From assembly GCA_030538085.1 (NCBI GenBank), contig JAUNUR010000019.1, forward strand, positions 1 through 46,151: DNA of 46,151 nucleotides. The letters are read 5' to 3'. The notes beneath the pieces are model-generated. The model saw only the letters and a program-made list of their open reading frames with translations, had not been told where the DNA came from and ran no database searches. This DNA is from Pseudomonadota bacterium. GTDB lineage: Bacteria > Pseudomonadota > Gammaproteobacteria > Burkholderiales > Burkholderiaceae_C. Numbering within the stretch: position 1 is the stretch's first letter; each line of letters opens with the position of its first letter. A program made the position numbers and the translations under genes. Positions 37,971 through 45,620 of this stretch are shown here, one piece after another.

Positions 37971-38135
37971 TAGTACGCCGACACGGAAATTTCGAAACGT
38001 GAAAGCGCGTCTTCGCCCCGATGGCGGCGTTGCACATCCTCGCGATACCAACCGGTATCGCTACGGTGTGCGCCTTGCCCTCGGGCCGAATCCATCACTT
38101 TCACCATGTTCCGAAATTTCCGTGTCGGCGTACTA
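37971..38135. mobile_element. 161-bp MITE with TA target duplication, upstream of rpoH
   Basis: Terminal inverted repeats start GTACGCCGACACGGAAATTT at 37973 and end with the exact reverse complement at 38133; about 23 bp pair perfectly and pairing continues imperfectly. TA flanks both ends (37971-37972 and 38134-38135) in a CTAG context, the target preferred by IS630-type transposases. There is no transposase gene inside. Its right end is 15 bp from the CIRCE operator. Confidence 0.8.
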
Positions 38136-38150
38136 GGTTGAACTTCTCGT

Positions 38151-38177
38151 TTAGCACTCACTCCAAGAGAGTGCTAG
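38151..38177 (+). promoter_or_regulatory. CIRCE operator (HrcA site) upstream of rpoH
   Basis: TTAGCACTC, nine bases, GAGTGCTAG: 17 of 18 arm positions match the CIRCE consensus. It lies 33 bases before the rpoH start, so HrcA should repress rpoH. Confidence 0.9.
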
Positions 38178-38180
38178 AAT
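38151..38180 (+). promoter_or_regulatory. Possible rpoH promoter overlapping CIRCE
   Basis: TTAGCA (38151-38156) and TAGAAT (38175-38180) with an 18-base spacer form a plausible sigma-70 promoter fully covered by the operator. Confidence 0.45.
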
Positions 38181-38209
38181 ACTTGAGCAACATGAAAGGA
38201 CATTCAACG

Positions 38210-39148
<939 letters not shown>

Positions 39149-39242: not shown

Positions 39243-39293
39243 ATTTTGAGCGACAACAACGTCAAATGTAACCAAAGCCTACAATTCACGACT

Positions 39294-41057
39294 GTGCTGA
39301 TCCGTGTTGTCTGCCTCATCGTTGTCCGCTTGTCCGCGTGGCTGACCAGGGCACGGCGGTCGCTGGCCTTCTTGATGCTGCTGGCGAGCGCCGCCGCCGC
39401 AACCGCCGTGCCGCCACCCGCGCCCATCGAGCTGCAAGCCGAACAACGCACGGTCTGGCCGCTGGCGGGCCATGGACAGTTCTGGATCGACCCCACCGGG
39501 CAGCTGGACATCGATGCCGTCGCGCGGCACGGCGATGCGCTGGACTGGCGGCCCGTGGCGACCGAGGTGCGCTACACGCTCGATGGCAAGGTGCTGTGGT
39601 TTCGCTTCAGCACGCACCAGACGATCACGACCGAGCGCTGGTTCATCGAGTTGATGGATTCGGGCATCGACCGCGCGGTGCTTTACCAGCGCGGAGACGA
39701 TGGCCGCTGGCTGGCGCAGGAAGCCGGCGACGCCCGGCCCGTGCCGCAGTGGCCCGCGCCGGGCCGGGTACCCACCTTCGCCCTCGCCACCAAGACGGAG
39801 CTGCCAGTGAATTACTGGCTGCGCGTGGAGCATGCGCGCGTGCCCTTTTCGGCGCCGATCCGCATCATCGACGGCACGCCCATGGCCATCTCGCGCGATC
39901 AGGAGCAGTTTTTGCTGGGCGGCTATTTCGGCTTGCTGGCCATGGTGCTGATGCTGTCAGTGGCGCTGTCCATCGTCTGGCGTGAGCGGCTGATGATCGC
40001 CTATGCGCTGTACGTCACCGTGGTCGGCATCACGCAACTGGCACAGCTGGGCATTGGCGCGCAGTACGTGTGGCCGTACTGGGACAGTTGGAACCGCATC
40101 TCCACTTTCGTGGGTCCCTCGCTCTCGGCCGTGGTGGGGTTGCTGTTCATCCGGCTGCTGACCGAGCCGGCGCGCAGCTCAATCTGGCTCGACCGCGCCG
40201 TGCTGGCCGCGGCCTTTGTCACCGCCGCGCTGGTGATCGCCGACATCGTGGTGCCCGTGGGAACGACCTACCAGCTGATCGGCGACGTGCTGGTGGTGGT
40301 GCTGGCGCTGGCCGTGCTCTGCATGGTGCTGGCCTGGCGGCGCAGCAACGACTGGCATCTGCGGCTGGCCATTCTGGGCTTCGTGCCGCTCCTGGTGCTG
40401 GCGCTGTTTCCGCTGGCACGCACGCTGGCACTCATCTCGTCTGGCCCGTTGACACGCTACGGCCTGGCCATCGGCGCCGCGCTGGAGATGCCGATCCTGC
40501 TGTACGCCATCGCCACCGGCACGGCCAGCCGCCGCGAATCGCGCGTGCGCGCCGCCGCCTCGGCCACCACCGACCCGCTGACGGGCCTGGCCAACCTGCG
40601 CGTGCTGACCCTGCGGCTGGACAGCACGCTGACACGCGCGGAAAAGCAGGGCAGCGGTTTCGCCCTGCTGGTGGTGCATGTCGCCAACTGGCAGGACATC
40701 GCCGCCACGCATGGCTTGCAAGCGGCCGAGCGCGCGCTGGTGCTGACGGCCTCGCGCCTGCGCCGCATCGTGGGCGACGTCGATCTGGCGGCCCGCCTGA
40801 GCGAGGCCGACTTCGCCGTGCTGCTGGAAGCGCCCTGCACCCGCAACGACGCCATCGCCCGCGCGCGCCGCATCGTGGACGAGGGCTCGCGCGATTCGGC
40901 GCTGCTGGCCAAGGGCGATACGCTGGAGTTGCACGTCAGCGTGGCCATGCTGCCCAGAAAGCCGCTCAACGCGCAGGCAGTGCTGCGCTGGATACTGGGC
41001 GCCGCGCGCGCGGCCAAGGGCAGCCCGCTTGATCAGCGCGTGCGCGTGCTGGGCTGA
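39294..41057 (+). CDS. 7TMR-DISM sensor with degenerate GGDEF domain
   Basis: About 587 residues. A signal peptide (RARRSLAFLMLLASAAAATA) is followed by a periplasmic 7TMR-DISM extracellular domain (VLWFRFSTHQTITTERWFIE), seven helices (LLGGYFGLLAMVLMLSVALS through MPILLYAIATGTA) and a C-terminal GGDEF-like domain starting TTDPLTGLANLRVLTLRLDS. The active-site GGDEF is replaced: the motif region reads RLSEADFAVLLE at about residue 500, so diguanylate cyclase activity is unlikely and the domain may be a receptor or partner module. The start is uncertain: GTG at 39294 is used, a TTG near 39327 gives an equally good signal peptide, and the open frame before it lies in the rpoH terminator. Confidence 0.75.
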   Translation: MLIRVVCLIVVRLSAWLTRARRSLAFLMLLASAAAATAVPPPAPIELQAEQRTVWPLAGHGQFWIDPTGQLDIDAVARHGDALDWRPVATEVRYTLDGKVLWFRFSTHQTITTERWFIELMDSGIDRAVLYQRGDDGRWLAQEAGDARPVPQWPAPGRVPTFALATKTELPVNYWLRVEHARVPFSAPIRIIDGTPMAISRDQEQFLLGGYFGLLAMVLMLSVALSIVWRERLMIAYALYVTVVGITQLAQLGIGAQYVWPYWDSWNRISTFVGPSLSAVVGLLFIRLLTEPARSSIWLDRAVLAAAFVTAALVIADIVVPVGTTYQLIGDVLVVVLALAVLCMVLAWRRSNDWHLRLAILGFVPLLVLALFPLARTLALISSGPLTRYGLAIGAALEMPILLYAIATGTASRRESRVRAAASATTDPLTGLANLRVLTLRLDSTLTRAEKQGSGFALLVVHVANWQDIAATHGLQAAERALVLTASRLRRIVGDVDLAARLSEADFAVLLEAPCTRNDAIARARRIVDEGSRDSALLAKGDTLELHVSVAMLPRKPLNAQAVLRWILGAARAAKGSPLDQRVRVLG

Positions 41058-41138: not shown

Positions 41139-42131
41139 ATGCCCATTGCCCCGCTCTCCCGCCGCGCGCTGATCGCCAGCGCCGCCCTGCTCGCTTCCAT
41201 CGGCGCCGCCGCCCCTGCCCTTGCGCAAGGCGTGGCCTGGCCAAGCAAGCCGCTGCGCATCATCGTCGGCTTTCCGGCGGGTTCCTCGCCCGATCTGACG
41301 GCGCGCGCGCTGGCCGACCCGCTGGAGAAGGCGCTGGGCCAGCCCGTCGTCGTCGACAACCGCGCGGGCGCGGGCGGCAACATCGGTGCCGACGCCGTGG
41401 CCAAGGCCACCGACGGCCACACCATCGGCCTGATGATCAACGGCAACATGACCATCGCCCGGCTGCTGAACCCCGCCGTGCGCTACGACCCGCTGAAGGA
41501 CCTGGCGCCGATCAGCCTGATCGGCGTGGCGCCGCTGGTGCTGGTGGCGCCCGCCAGCGCCGCGGGCGGCGATGCCAGGGCTTTCTTCGGCGCGGCGCGC
41601 ACCGCCGGTGACAAGTGGAGCTATGGCTCGCCCGGCGTCGGCACCGTGGGCCACATTGGCATGGAACTGCTGAAAAGCCGTGCCGGCCTTGCCCCGGTGC
41701 ACGTGCCCTACAACGGCTACCCGCAGGTGTTCAACGCCATGGTGGGGGGCGACCTGCAGTTGTCGATGCTGCCGCCGGCACTGGCCAACACGCAGATCAA
41801 GGCCGGCAAGCTGCGCGGCATCGGCGTGACGTCCAGCGGGCGCAGCACGCTGGTGCCCGACCTGCCCAGCCTGGCCGAAGCCGGCGTGAAGGATTTCAAC
41901 CTGGAAATCTGGAACGCCGTGGCCGCGCCTGCCAGCATGCCGAAAGCGCATGTCGACAAGCTGGCCGCCGCCGTGAGCGCCATCGTGCGCGCGCCCGAGA
42001 TGCGCCAGCGCCTGTTCCAGCAAGGCTGGCAGGCCGTGGGCTCGTCGCCCGAGGGCTTGGCCAACCGCATTCAGTCCGACACGCGCGTGCTGGGCGACAT
42101 CATCCGCACACAAGGGATCAAGGCGGAATAA
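41139..42131 (+). CDS. Bug-family (TctC) periplasmic solute-binding protein
   Basis: A 330-residue precursor with a Tat- or Sec-like signal (SRRALIASAALLASIGAAAP, ending ALAQG). The mature protein has WPSKPLRIIVGFPAGSSPDL, VVVDNRAGAGGNIGADAVAK and VPYNGYPQVFNAMVGGDLQL, hallmarks of the Bordetella uptake gene family, which is greatly expanded in Burkholderiales. Ligands are usually carboxylates or aromatic acids; none can be assigned. No tctA or tctB is next to it. The ATG at 41139 is preferred to an upstream TTG at 41118. Confidence 0.9.
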   Translation: MPIAPLSRRALIASAALLASIGAAAPALAQGVAWPSKPLRIIVGFPAGSSPDLTARALADPLEKALGQPVVVDNRAGAGGNIGADAVAKATDGHTIGLMINGNMTIARLLNPAVRYDPLKDLAPISLIGVAPLVLVAPASAAGGDARAFFGAARTAGDKWSYGSPGVGTVGHIGMELLKSRAGLAPVHVPYNGYPQVFNAMVGGDLQLSMLPPALANTQIKAGKLRGIGVTSSGRSTLVPDLPSLAEAGVKDFNLEIWNAVAAPASMPKAHVDKLAAAVSAIVRAPEMRQRLFQQGWQAVGSSPEGLANRIQSDTRVLGDIIRTQGIKAE

Positions 42132-42509: not shown

Positions 42510-43124
42510 TCAAGCGCCCCCCAGCAGCAGCTTGATGTCTTCGGCCACCGCCTTGGGATCGCTGCCGTAGCGGCTGTACAGGCGCAGCCGGCCTTGCGGA
42601 TCGTAGATGTAGCTGGCGGCCGTATGGTCCATGGTGTAGCTGGAGGGCGTGGCACCCTCCACCCGCTTGTAGTAGACCTTGTAGTCCTTGGCAAGCTGCG
42701 CCAGCCGCTCGGGAGAGCCAGCGTACAGGCCCAGAAAGCCGGCGTCAAAGCTGCCCATGTAGGCCTTCAGTATCTCGGGCGTGTCGCGCTCGGGGTCGAT
42801 GCTGACGAACAGCACCTGCAGCTTGTCGCCATCCGGCCCCAGCAATTGCTTGACCTGCGCCATCTCGGTCATGGTGGTGGGACACACGTCGGGGCATTGC
42901 GTGAAGCCGAAGAACATCACCACCGCCTTGCCCTTGAAATCGCCCAGGGTGCGCGGCTGGCCGTTGAAGTCGGTCAACTGAAAGCCCTTGGCGTAATCGG
43001 CGCCGGTGATGTCGATGCTGCGAAACTGCGGCTTGCCCGGTTGGCAGGCACTCAAAACGGCCACCGCGCCCGCCAGCAGGGCGCCGCCAACGATGCGTTG
43101 AATGGTGAATCGGCGTGAAATCAT
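42510..43124 (-). CDS. SCO1/SenC copper chaperone lipoprotein
   Basis: A 204-residue thioredoxin-fold protein that delivers copper to the CuA site of cytochrome c oxidase. The N-terminus is a lipoprotein signal ([15 protein letters not shown]). Copper ligands are Cys77 and Cys81 in [13 protein letters not shown] and His167 in [10 protein letters not shown]. The ATG at 43124 overlaps the stop of the upstream ctaB relic as ATGA, the arrangement expected of an intact ctaB-SCO pair. No oxidase structural genes are in the window, so its partner is elsewhere or lost. Confidence 0.93.
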
Positions 43125-43228
43125 GTCAGATAGTGGTCCAGCAACAGCGCCGCGAGCAACGGCGACAAATGAATCAGCGAAAACCGGAAGGTCTTGCGCG
43201 CCAACTGCCCAGAATAACGCCTCAAACC
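43121..43228 (-). pseudogene. ctaB: 3' relic of ctaB (protoheme IX farnesyltransferase)
   Basis: The reverse strand encodes 35 codons ending at a TGA that overlaps the SCO1 start. The product includes [16 protein letters not shown], then IHLSP, then [11 protein letters not shown], which matches what I know of the C-terminal end of betaproteobacterial CtaB (heme O synthase). Nothing else of the roughly 300-residue enzyme is present: immediately upstream in the same frame is the TGA stop of the methyltransferase gene. It has no start codon of its own and is read as a deletion remnant. Confidence 0.7.
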
Positions 43229-44155
43229 TCAAGGAAGAGGCTTGTCGTGATTGCGCTGCCGCAGGAAGGCGCGCATGTCATCCAGCCCGATGGCGGTTTC
43301 GCTGCTCACCGCATGGCGCGGCGCGGGCTTGACGGCGTGACCGTAGATGACCTCGAAAGTCAGCGCCAGCGCATCGTCCTGCCCTGAGTGTTCGCCCAGT
43401 CGCTGCCCGATGGCTTCTTCCAGACGCTGGCGCCACGCCCGCCCGCGCAGCGCGCCAAAGCGCTCCACATGCAGGTTGCGGCCCAGCTCGCGCAGCTCGC
43501 GCAGCAACCGCTCGGGCGAGGGGAAGGTCAGCGTCACGATCTCCATGTCCATCACCGGCTCGGCGAAGCCCGCCGCCGCCAACTGGTCGCCCCAGTCGTG
43601 CATGTCGGTGAACTCGTGCGCGGGCGGCGGCCAGCCCAGCCGCGCATACACGCCGCGCAACTCCTTCAGCGTGTCCGGCCCCAGGCAGGAGAACATCACG
43701 AAACCGTTCACGGCAAGCGCGCGGTGCCACTCAGCCATTAGCGCGCCGGGGTCGGCGCTGTGGTGGGCCAGCATGTTGGCCCACACCATTTGCACCGCCC
43801 CGTCCGGTGGCCGCGCCACATGCCGGGCCACGGGGCGGTCGCCCACCAGTTTTCGCCACCAGCCGGATGCCTCTTTTCCCGCCGCTTCTTCCGCCTGCTC
43901 TTCAACGGCGGAAACCCGAAAGCACTGGGCGCCGGGGTAGTGCCCCGCCGCCAGATCGTGCCCGGCCACACCACCACGCACCGGCTCCCAATGCGCCCAG
44001 GCCCGCACTGGCAGGCGGATGACGCCCAGGCGCTCGGCCATGCGGCGCGCCACCTCCTCGTGCAGCCAGGGCGACGCCTGGTGGCGCATCGCGGCCCAGC
44101 GGCGCGCGGCCACGGGATCGACGCTGGGTGGTGGCTGGCTGCTGGGTGGTGGCAT
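43229..44155 (-). CDS. BioC-like SAM-dependent methyltransferase
   Basis: A 308-residue protein. The C-terminal half has the BioC-like features MVWANMLAHHSADPGALMAE, WHRALAVNGFVMFSCLGPDT with LKELR, and FTDMHDWGDQLAAAGFAEPV followed by MDME. The N-terminal SAM-binding region is less clear than usual; LPVRAWAHWEPVRGG and WWRKLVGDRPVARHVARPPD occupy the place. In related genomes this gene stands next to comF and before the cytochrome oxidase operon; here comF is divergent. The ATG at 44155 is preferred over an upstream in-frame codon at 44263 that lies in repeat sequence. Confidence 0.75.
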   Translation of the reverse strand: MPPPSSQPPPSVDPVAARRWAAMRHQASPWLHEEVARRMAERLGVIRLPVRAWAHWEPVRGGVAGHDLAAGHYPGAQCFRVSAVEEQAEEAAGKEASGWWRKLVGDRPVARHVARPPDGAVQMVWANMLAHHSADPGALMAEWHRALAVNGFVMFSCLGPDTLKELRGVYARLGWPPPAHEFTDMHDWGDQLAAAGFAEPVMDMEIVTLTFPSPERLLRELRELGRNLHVERFGALRGRAWRQRLEEAIGQRLGEHSGQDDALALTFEVIYGHAVKPAPRHAVSSETAIGLDDMRAFLRQRNHDKPLP

Positions 44156-44182: not shown

Positions 44183-44345
44183 GATACCGTTTTGCGTTCG
44201 CAAAAGACATTTCTTGATCCATGACGGAATGACTTCGCCGCGGCGCGGCGTCAATGACTCCATGACGTTGGCCGTGCACGAAACGCCTGACGCTCCGTGG
44301 CGTCATGGCGGCACAGCCGTCGTCACCCCCTGCCGCGCGAACTGC
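44183..44345. repeat. Repeat-rich gap between methyltransferase and comF
   Basis: Begins GATACCGTTTTGCGTTCGCA as at 42180, then diverged units (GACGGAATGACTTCGCCGC and GTCATGGCGGCACAGCC). No gene. Confidence 0.5.
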
Positions 44346-44388
44346 CGCCGTTTTGAACGCGAATCCGTATGAAATCCTGTTCCCGTGC

Positions 44389-45108
44389 ATGTTCACCCGC
44401 CTGCTGAACCGTCTATCGCTGGCCGCGCCGGCCCACGCGCCGCTCTGGCCCAGCCAGTGCATCGTGTGCCGTGCGTGGCCGGCGCAGACCTTGTGCGGCG
44501 ACTGCACCGTGCGCTTTGCGCCAGTGGTGGCGCGCTGCACCACCTGCGCGCTGCCCGTGCCCCCCGGTGTCGCCATCTGCGGCGCGTGCTTGCGTCACCC
44601 CCCGCCGATGACGCGGTGCCTTGCCGCCCTGCCCTATGCCTGGCCGTGGGCGATGTGCATGGCCCGCTGGAAGTTCGAGGGCGACGTGGGCCTGACGCGG
44701 CCGCTGGCCCGGCTGATGATGGAGGCGCCAGAGATGCGACGGGCCACAGCCATGGCCGACATCGTGCTGCCCATGCCCATGTCGCCCCAGCGGCTGGGCG
44801 AGCGCGGCTACAACCCCGCGCTGCTGCTGGCCCGTGCCCTGGCGCGCCAGCGCACCCTTGCCGACCTGCTGCTGCGCACGCGCGACACCCCGCCCCAGCG
44901 CGGCCTGCCGCGCGCACGGCGGCTGAAAAACGTGCGCGGCGCGTTCCAGGTAAACCCTTTGCGGGCGTCCGAACTCGACGGGCGCCACGTGGCGTTGATC
45001 GACGACGTCATGACCACCGGCGCCAGCGTGCGCGAGGCCGCCAGCGCGCTGCGCGCCGCGGGGGCCAGTCAAATATCGGTGCTGGTGCTGGCGCGTGCCG
45101 CCAACTGA
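44389..45108 (+). CDS. comF: ComF-family phosphoribosyltransferase-like protein
   Basis: A 239-residue protein of the ComF/GntX family, linked to DNA uptake and utilisation. The N-terminal zinc-finger-like part has cysteine pairs in QCIVC, LCGDC, CTTC and ICGAC. The C-terminal type I phosphoribosyltransferase fold has LPMPMSPQRLGERGYNPALL, RLKNVRGAF and the PRPP loop VALIDDVMTTGAS. The ATG at 44389 (MFTRLLNRL) is used; the frame is open further upstream in repeat sequence. Confidence 0.9.
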   Translation: MFTRLLNRLSLAAPAHAPLWPSQCIVCRAWPAQTLCGDCTVRFAPVVARCTTCALPVPPGVAICGACLRHPPPMTRCLAALPYAWPWAMCMARWKFEGDVGLTRPLARLMMEAPEMRRATAMADIVLPMPMSPQRLGERGYNPALLLARALARQRTLADLLLRTRDTPPQRGLPRARRLKNVRGAFQVNPLRASELDGRHVALIDDVMTTGASVREAASALRAAGASQISVLVLARAAN

Positions 45109-45137: not shown

Positions 45138-45620
45138 ATGTTCCACATCGTTCTGGTCGAGCCCGAAATCCCGCCCAACACGGGCAACGTCATCCGGCTG
45201 GCCGCCAACACCGGCTGCGCGCTGCACCTGATCGAGCCACTGGGTTTTTCCATGGACGACAAGCACATGCGGCGCGCGGGCCTGGATTACCACGAATACG
45301 CCACCGTGCGGCGTCACGCCGATTGGGACACGTTCATGGCGACCGAACGCCCGTCGCCCGAACGGCTGTTCGCGCTGACCACGCGCGGCACGCGCCACGT
45401 GCATGCGGTGGCGTTCCAGCCCGGCGACTGGCTGGTTTTTGGCGCCGAAACGCGCGGCCTGCCACCGGCGCTGCGTGAGTGCCTGCCGCCCGCCCAACAG
45501 TTACGCCTGCCGATGCGCGCAGGCCAGCGCAGCCTGAACCTGTCCAACGCCGTGGCCGTGACGGTGTTCGAGGCATGGCGCCAGAACGGCTTCGCCGAAA
45601 CCTGGACGCGGCGGCCATGA
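45138..45620 (+). CDS. trmL: tRNA (cytidine(34)-2'-O)-methyltransferase TrmL
   Basis: A 160-residue SPOUT methyltransferase that modifies the wobble base of tRNA-Leu. It has HIVLVEPEIPPNTGNVIRLA, the knot segments WLVFGAETRGLPPAL and LRLPMRAGQRSLNLSNAVAV. The length is that of the family. It lies 29 bases after comF. Confidence 0.95.
   Translation: MFHIVLVEPEIPPNTGNVIRLAANTGCALHLIEPLGFSMDDKHMRRAGLDYHEYATVRRHADWDTFMATERPSPERLFALTTRGTRHVHAVAFQPGDWLVFGAETRGLPPALRECLPPAQQLRLPMRAGQRSLNLSNAVAVTVFEAWRQNGFAETWTRRP

Follow-up and report, generated by a model that had tools for sequence, protein, structure and literature searches.

The window analysed here is a stretch of 46,151 nucleotides (contig JAUNUR010000019.1, assembly GCA_030538085.1) from an Ottowia genome, G000, which comprises 3.50 Mb in 134 contigs and scores 100% for completeness and 0.47% for contamination. 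Towards one end of the window, a remnant of ctaB is all that lies between a gene for a BioC-like methyltransferase (MT) and an intact gene for an SCO1/SenC-family protein. The features of this locus are listed below; rpoH, TctC/Bug-type and 7TM/GGDEF-type are names that we presume to apply to the window genes.

38021..39148, plus strand: rpoH-like sigma factor gene, convergent with SCO (name from the earlier note and our presumption)
39246..41057, plus strand: 7TM/GGDEF-type gene, at the same place in the sister genome (presumed name)
41139..42131, plus strand: TctC/Bug-type binding protein gene, the other flank, also the neighbour in the sister (presumed name)
42510..43124, minus strand: intact gene for an SCO1/SenC-family protein (PF02630, E 7.1e-45; CPDVCP and DHT)
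43121..43124, minus strand: ATGA overlap of the ctaB stop and the SCO start
43121..43219, minus strand: ctaB relic, whose tblastn matches coincide with ctaB
43217..43226, minus strand: predicted deletion junction zone, from comparison with the 3' ends of sister MT and ctaB
43224..43232, minus strand: truncated FNR/ANR-like box, TTGAGGTTT, overlapping the MT stop (in the sister, TTGAGGTTTATCAA)
43229..44155, minus strand: BioC-like methyltransferase gene (MT), flank of the predicted deletion (TIGR02072, 76.6 bits, below the cut-off of 185)
44305..45108, plus strand: comF, divergent from MT (name from the earlier note)
45141..45620, plus strand: trmL (name from the earlier note)

An earlier note on this DNA gave the order trmL, comF, MT, cox/cta genes, ctaB, SCO and rpoH for the family. 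Two details have to be corrected: comF and trmL are transcribed divergently from MT, and a TctC-like gene, joined here and in the sister by a GGDEF-type gene, lies between SCO and the convergent rpoH. Upstream of its ATG, the SCO frame extends without a stop to a TTG at 43232 on the minus strand (42510-43232, a 240-aa ORF), and automatic annotation may place the SCO start too early.

Reading of the minus strand bore out two observations of that note, namely that the MT stop (TGA, 43231-43229) lies directly upstream of the ctaB relic in the same frame and that the relic stop (TGA, 43123-43121) overlaps the SCO ATG (43124-43122) as ATGA. The frame after the MT stop runs on for 35 residues (43228-43121) without an earlier stop. 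Its residues GL fall in the deletion junction. The 31 codons that start with YS match CtaB unambiguously, and one or two preceding codons plausibly belong to it as well. The relic (43219-43121) thus comprises the stop of the heme O synthase gene and the ∼32 codons in front of it, slightly fewer than the 35 codons that had been claimed, and its identity as ctaB stands.

A Pfam search with a 34-residue relic piece, which is too short for this purpose, gave no match even at E≤10, and the identification of the relic therefore rests on relatives. When the 33-residue relic was compared by tblastn with 234 fetched loci (about 2.4 Mb, partly redundant in that several overlapping fetches cover the same gene), 117 matches were obtained at E≤10. 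All 102 matches with E<1e-3 overlapped or abutted a ctaB match on the same strand, and none at this level fell outside intact ctaB in the 234 loci, so that a coincidental resemblance can be dismissed; the other 15 had E values of 0.013-7.8, the one at 0.013 being a ctaB truncated at a contig end (L212). The top match (87.5% over 32 residues, E 2e-13) provides the similarity to CtaB C termini that the earlier note had proposed to look for by alignment. In all 18 aa3-bearing genomes of the genus, CtaB has the C-terminal pattern (Y/F)S...KTF...DHY and stops a short way ahead of SCO, and the ATGA overlap of ctaB and SCO also occurs in G001, G013, G017 and G027. The C-terminal homology of the relic to CtaB/Cox10 is borne out by all 102 of these matches. 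With the model for the full-length prenyltransferase (TIGR01473; cut-off 210 bits), the best score in the window genome is 78 bits, for a gene on another contig. The relic is a pseudogene fragment and not a member of the CtaB/Cox10 family.

The operon that would once have occupied this place is seen in the sister genome, G001 (Ottowia beijingensis or a similar species, GCS-AN-3), where the order is rpoH, GGDEF-type gene, TctC-like gene, SCO, ctaB, ctaA, surf1, coxC, cox11, ctaD, coxB, MT, comF and trmL. The distance from MT stop to ctaB stop is 9,783 bp in the sister versus 108 bp in the window genome, from which a loss of ∼9.7 kb is deduced. On the MT side, the match to the sister extends through TTGAGGTTT (43232-43224), which is the same in both over 9 bp before the sequences part, and homology to ctaB can be recognised clearly from around 43219, placing the breakpoint within about 10 bp (43217..43226). 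G001 is the sister of the window genome on a four-gene tree of rpoB, MT, comF and SCO (support 100/99) and pairs with it on rpoB (87/82), for which its sequence is partial. It is very likely, on this comparison of sequences, that the aa3 operon was deleted from MT to the end of ctaB after the split from the sister. The lost segment of about 9.7 kb would begin immediately after the MT stop, within the FNR-like box, extend to ∼32 codons before the ctaB end and, by the sister order, would have carried coxB, ctaD, cox11, coxC, surf1, ctaA and most of ctaB. The comparison with close relatives suggested in the earlier note, together with its claim that everything between MT and the end of ctaB is missing, is thus answered by a sister that carries the operon at the identical place between the same flanks. 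The sister genes at the locus are split by frameshifts, as is sister rpoB, so that the sister cox operon is only presumably functional.

The search of the whole genome for coxABC, ctaA, ctaB and other oxidases, likewise suggested beforehand, detected no aa3-specific genes elsewhere either and so supported the proposed loss of the oxidase. No CtaD-class COX1 was detected in the genome (best score, 49 bits versus 671 for the CtaD model), nor were CtaA (PF02628) and Cox11 (PF04442). For CtaB, only a UbiA-level match below the cut-off was obtained, and CoxB was lacking, the sole COX2 match sitting inside NosZ on contig C11. An aa3 system comprising CtaD-class COX1, CoxB, CtaA, CtaB and Cox11 is accordingly not encoded in the genome as assembled. 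Apart from this set, two PF00510 (COX3-like) matches exceeded the cut-off, on C12 (E 1e-11) and C49 (E 1.2e-4); our guess is that these are NorE-type proteins. The genome holds three COX1 matches: a cbb3 CcoN on C116 (TIGR00780, 775.7 bits; cut-off 583) with ccoO beside it (TIGR00781, 297.7 bits; cut-off 201), a CcoN-like protein on C127 that scores 254 bits with TIGR00780 and falls short of the same cut-off, and one on C97 that looks, by eye, like NorB and whose neighbors look NorC- and NorQ-like. A bd oxidase is present on C114. Respiration would, from this gene content, rely on cbb3, bd and denitrification. The sub-cut-off CcoN-like gene (L104, on C127, and L002) has CcoO/CcoP-like partners and an NnrS-like neighbor (by eye); C127 also carries a distant SCO relative, and similar COX1 scores occur in G005, G006, G008 and G014.

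Because the genome is a draft of 134 contigs, an operon that exists but was dropped or bypassed during contig building might be suspected. Such an artefact is extremely improbable: a genome scored 100% complete yields no CtaD-class COX1, CtaA, CtaB over the cut-off, Cox11 or CoxB, and the relic carries substitutions of its own. Over 29 codons, the relic differs from 18 intact ctaB copies by pN values of 0.07-0.24 and pS values of 0.41-0.71; the pN maximum comes from the divergent G008, without which it is 0.14. Among themselves, seven close intact copies show pN values of 0-0.06 and pS values of 0.13-0.54. Two relic substitutions, D3G and L19P, affect positions that are invariant in 17 of the 18 intact copies; a third, F21L, affects one that is invariant in all 18. 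No stop codons or frameshifts were found in the 29 codons compared. This pattern suggests that the ctaB tail is a young, decaying pseudogene, 29 codons being too few for proof.

The distribution of aa3 genes was surveyed in 29 Ottowia genomes, one per species, including the window genome. CtaB over the cut-off, CtaA and Cox11 were each present in the same 18 genomes and missing from the other 11 (G000, G003, G007, G009, G011, G020-G024 and G026), some of which are incomplete; CtaA was, however, also lacking from six of the 17 genomes with a completeness of 90% or more and a contamination of 5% or less. MT adjoins SCO in six of the 11 aa3-less genomes (G000, G003, G007, G021, G022 and G024). 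As regards the others, neither MT nor SCO was seen in G009 (62% complete), and SCO-b, a paralogue, was all that G023 showed. MT is present in the remaining three, together with SCO-b on a different contig in G020, with a weak SCO match in G026 and with no SCO match in G011. The loss inferred in the earlier note therefore stands, but the MT-SCO junction is no peculiarity of this genome, being shared by five other aa3-less Ottowia. At these five junctions no ctaB relic was seen, either by reading or by tblastn. G011 and G026 (L128 and L129), whose genomes are about 2 Mb in size, have comF behind MT in the same orientation rather than divergent from it.

Beyond the genus, a search of genome contigs with the MT alignment returned at least 595 stretches from at least 581 relatives. 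Among the best 80 named loci, of which at least six belong to the genus set, 77 contain a coxB downstream of MT, the set in L217 being divergent, and 3 do not. In L183 (Polaromonas jejuensis), MT is separated from the usual coxB-ctaD by another, divergent set of oxidase genes. MT is followed by SCO in L200 and L226 (MAGs labelled Giesbergeria and Ramlibacter, respectively), with no ctaB relic seen at either junction, and L181 shows neither cox nor SCO within 9 kb downstream of MT.

Since the operon occupies this place in most wider-family loci seen, changes of state within Ottowia are read as losses. On the four-gene tree, the aa3 states need at least 6 changes, and a single clade of losses (10 rows versus 18) is rejected (AU p 4.9e-9). 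This tree has 28 rows, G009 being absent, of which eight are under half filled and ten have odd composition, and its deep branches are weak. The SCO columns exclude G020 and G023 and retain G021 and G022, whose SCO-b-like sequences may affect their placement. On the rpoB tree (19 rows), where other aa3-less species could group, two changes suffice for the whole tree. A loss ancestral to all aa3-less Ottowia, with the relic as the last trace of one old event, might be sought in that result, yet even rpoB pairs the window genome with its aa3-bearing sister. This, the stronger sister pairing and rejection of a single loss clade on the four-gene tree, and the five other MT-SCO junctions without a relic leave an ancestral loss very hard to credit. 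It can safely be stated that there were at least two losses in Ottowia and that the loss in the window genome falls on its own terminal branch.

SCO proteins carry a CxxxC motif and a distal His. Both are present in the window protein (CPDVCP and DHT), which matches PF02630 at 153 bits against a cut-off of 22.8; the distal motif in G007 is EHT. In the SCO tree, the window SCO lies outside the SCO-b clade (100/99) and among cox-linked SCOs, a part of the tree whose internal branches are weakly supported. The SCO sequences of G020 and G023 group with SCO-b (100/99) and were rejected as the same orphan. Those of G021 and G022, though beside MT, also group with SCO-b (93/87), so that these two genomes are weaker cases of the same SCO being kept. 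The SCO rate relative to MT and comF gave a ratio of 0.50 in the window genome, and a raised rate in orphan lineages was not supported (Mann-Whitney p=0.19; fixed topology, 22 genomes, 5 aa3-less and 17 aa3-bearing). The window SCO branch was 0.19 on the SCO tree without the sister and 0.134 on the fixed tree, versus 0.164 for the sister. The cox genes have indeed gone from around SCO, as the earlier note had it, but SCO is no mere orphan: the gene is intact, has no raised rate, and its retention points to cbb3.

We consider it probable that SCO has been kept for its help in assembling the CuB site in the cbb3 oxidase that remains. According to a review (PMC7558416), Rhodobacter requires SenC for cbb3, and Sco is found in bacteria lacking aa3. 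In G007 (99% complete), MT-SCO is accompanied by a CcoN-class gene, with no aa3 and no NosZ match, and G011 (97% complete) has NosZ and bd, with no COX1 match at all and no SCO match; CcoN class was assigned by COX1 score except in the window genome. These two patterns point to a role in cbb3 rather than NosZ. Counter to it, G009 (62% complete) has a CcoN-class COX1 and no SCO match, and G022 (57% complete) has MT-SCO and no CcoN-class gene. SCO might instead serve another purpose, such as NosZ CuA assembly or thiol/copper defence, or might simply not have been lost yet. The genome does encode NosZ, the same review reports an effect of senC2 on N2O reduction in P. denitrificans (PMC7558416), and two further SCO relatives occur in the genome, on C43 (35%) and C127 (27%). 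The C43 relative (L103, 5158-5784) lies beside NosL-like and ABC transporter genes (names by eye), probably a nos accessory cluster. That a different SCO adjoins nos-type genes argues against such a task for the window SCO, as do G007 and G011 and the persistence of MT-linked SCO in five other aa3-less species, and we regard these alternatives as rather unlikely.

Loss of the operon would also have changed how SCO is expressed. A 14-bp box with at least 8 of 10 positions of what we take to be the FNR/ANR consensus is found at the MT stop or close to it in 13 of the 17 aa3-bearing genomes scanned (G016 was left out of the 18), overlapping the stop in 12; it is weak or absent in G005, G008, G010 and G028 (O. 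thiooxydans DSM 14619). A box was also found behind MT in nine of the best 80 named loci, L086 and L219 included, at least three of the nine being the same genomes. This putative box suggests oxygen control of aa3. The deletion cut the box, so that SCO would have to be transcribed by read-through from MT or from a promoter that has escaped notice. Loss of the cox promoter may have left SCO to read-through from MT, and the relic frame may restart at the TTG at 43225 and, ending in ATGA, keep SCO translation coupled to that of MT. A more general scheme is offered only tentatively: several deletions in Ottowia and elsewhere in Comamonadaceae would strip the aa3 operon and spare SCO joined to the MT unit, selection for SCO in cbb3 would set the right-hand edge and, in the window genome, the ctaB tail would be kept as a translational coupler from MT to SCO.

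Among the open-licence PMC papers listed, none on this loss was found. The loss is newly documented here; it is ordinary gene loss that recurs in the genus, an orphan SCO has precedents, and a role for SCO in cbb3 has already been published for SenC. Its value lies in its legibility, with a scar, near-exact breakpoints and an operon-bearing sister within a genus in which the trait varies. Ottowia lends itself to comparative study of what SCO does without its classical client and of why some lineages give up heme A respiration.

The Comamonadaceae cluster coxB-ctaD-cox11-coxC-surf1-ctaA-ctaB-sco has the same flanks as the locus described here, and close relatives show the same ctaB-ATGA-sco overlap; in contrast to that cluster, the window genome is without everything from the MT stop to the last ∼32 ctaB codons. 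The MT-SCO loci of G003, G007, G021, G022, G024, L200 and L226 resemble it in that the cox genes have gone and SCO is kept beside MT, but no ctaB relic was seen at their junctions, and the SCO of G021 and G022 belongs to another paralogue group. The SenC/Sco chaperones of aa3-less bacteria, as described in the review (PMC7558416), likewise occur without aa3 and with cbb3. In the present case, the step from a cox-linked to an orphan SCO would, unlike in those bacteria, fall on one branch.
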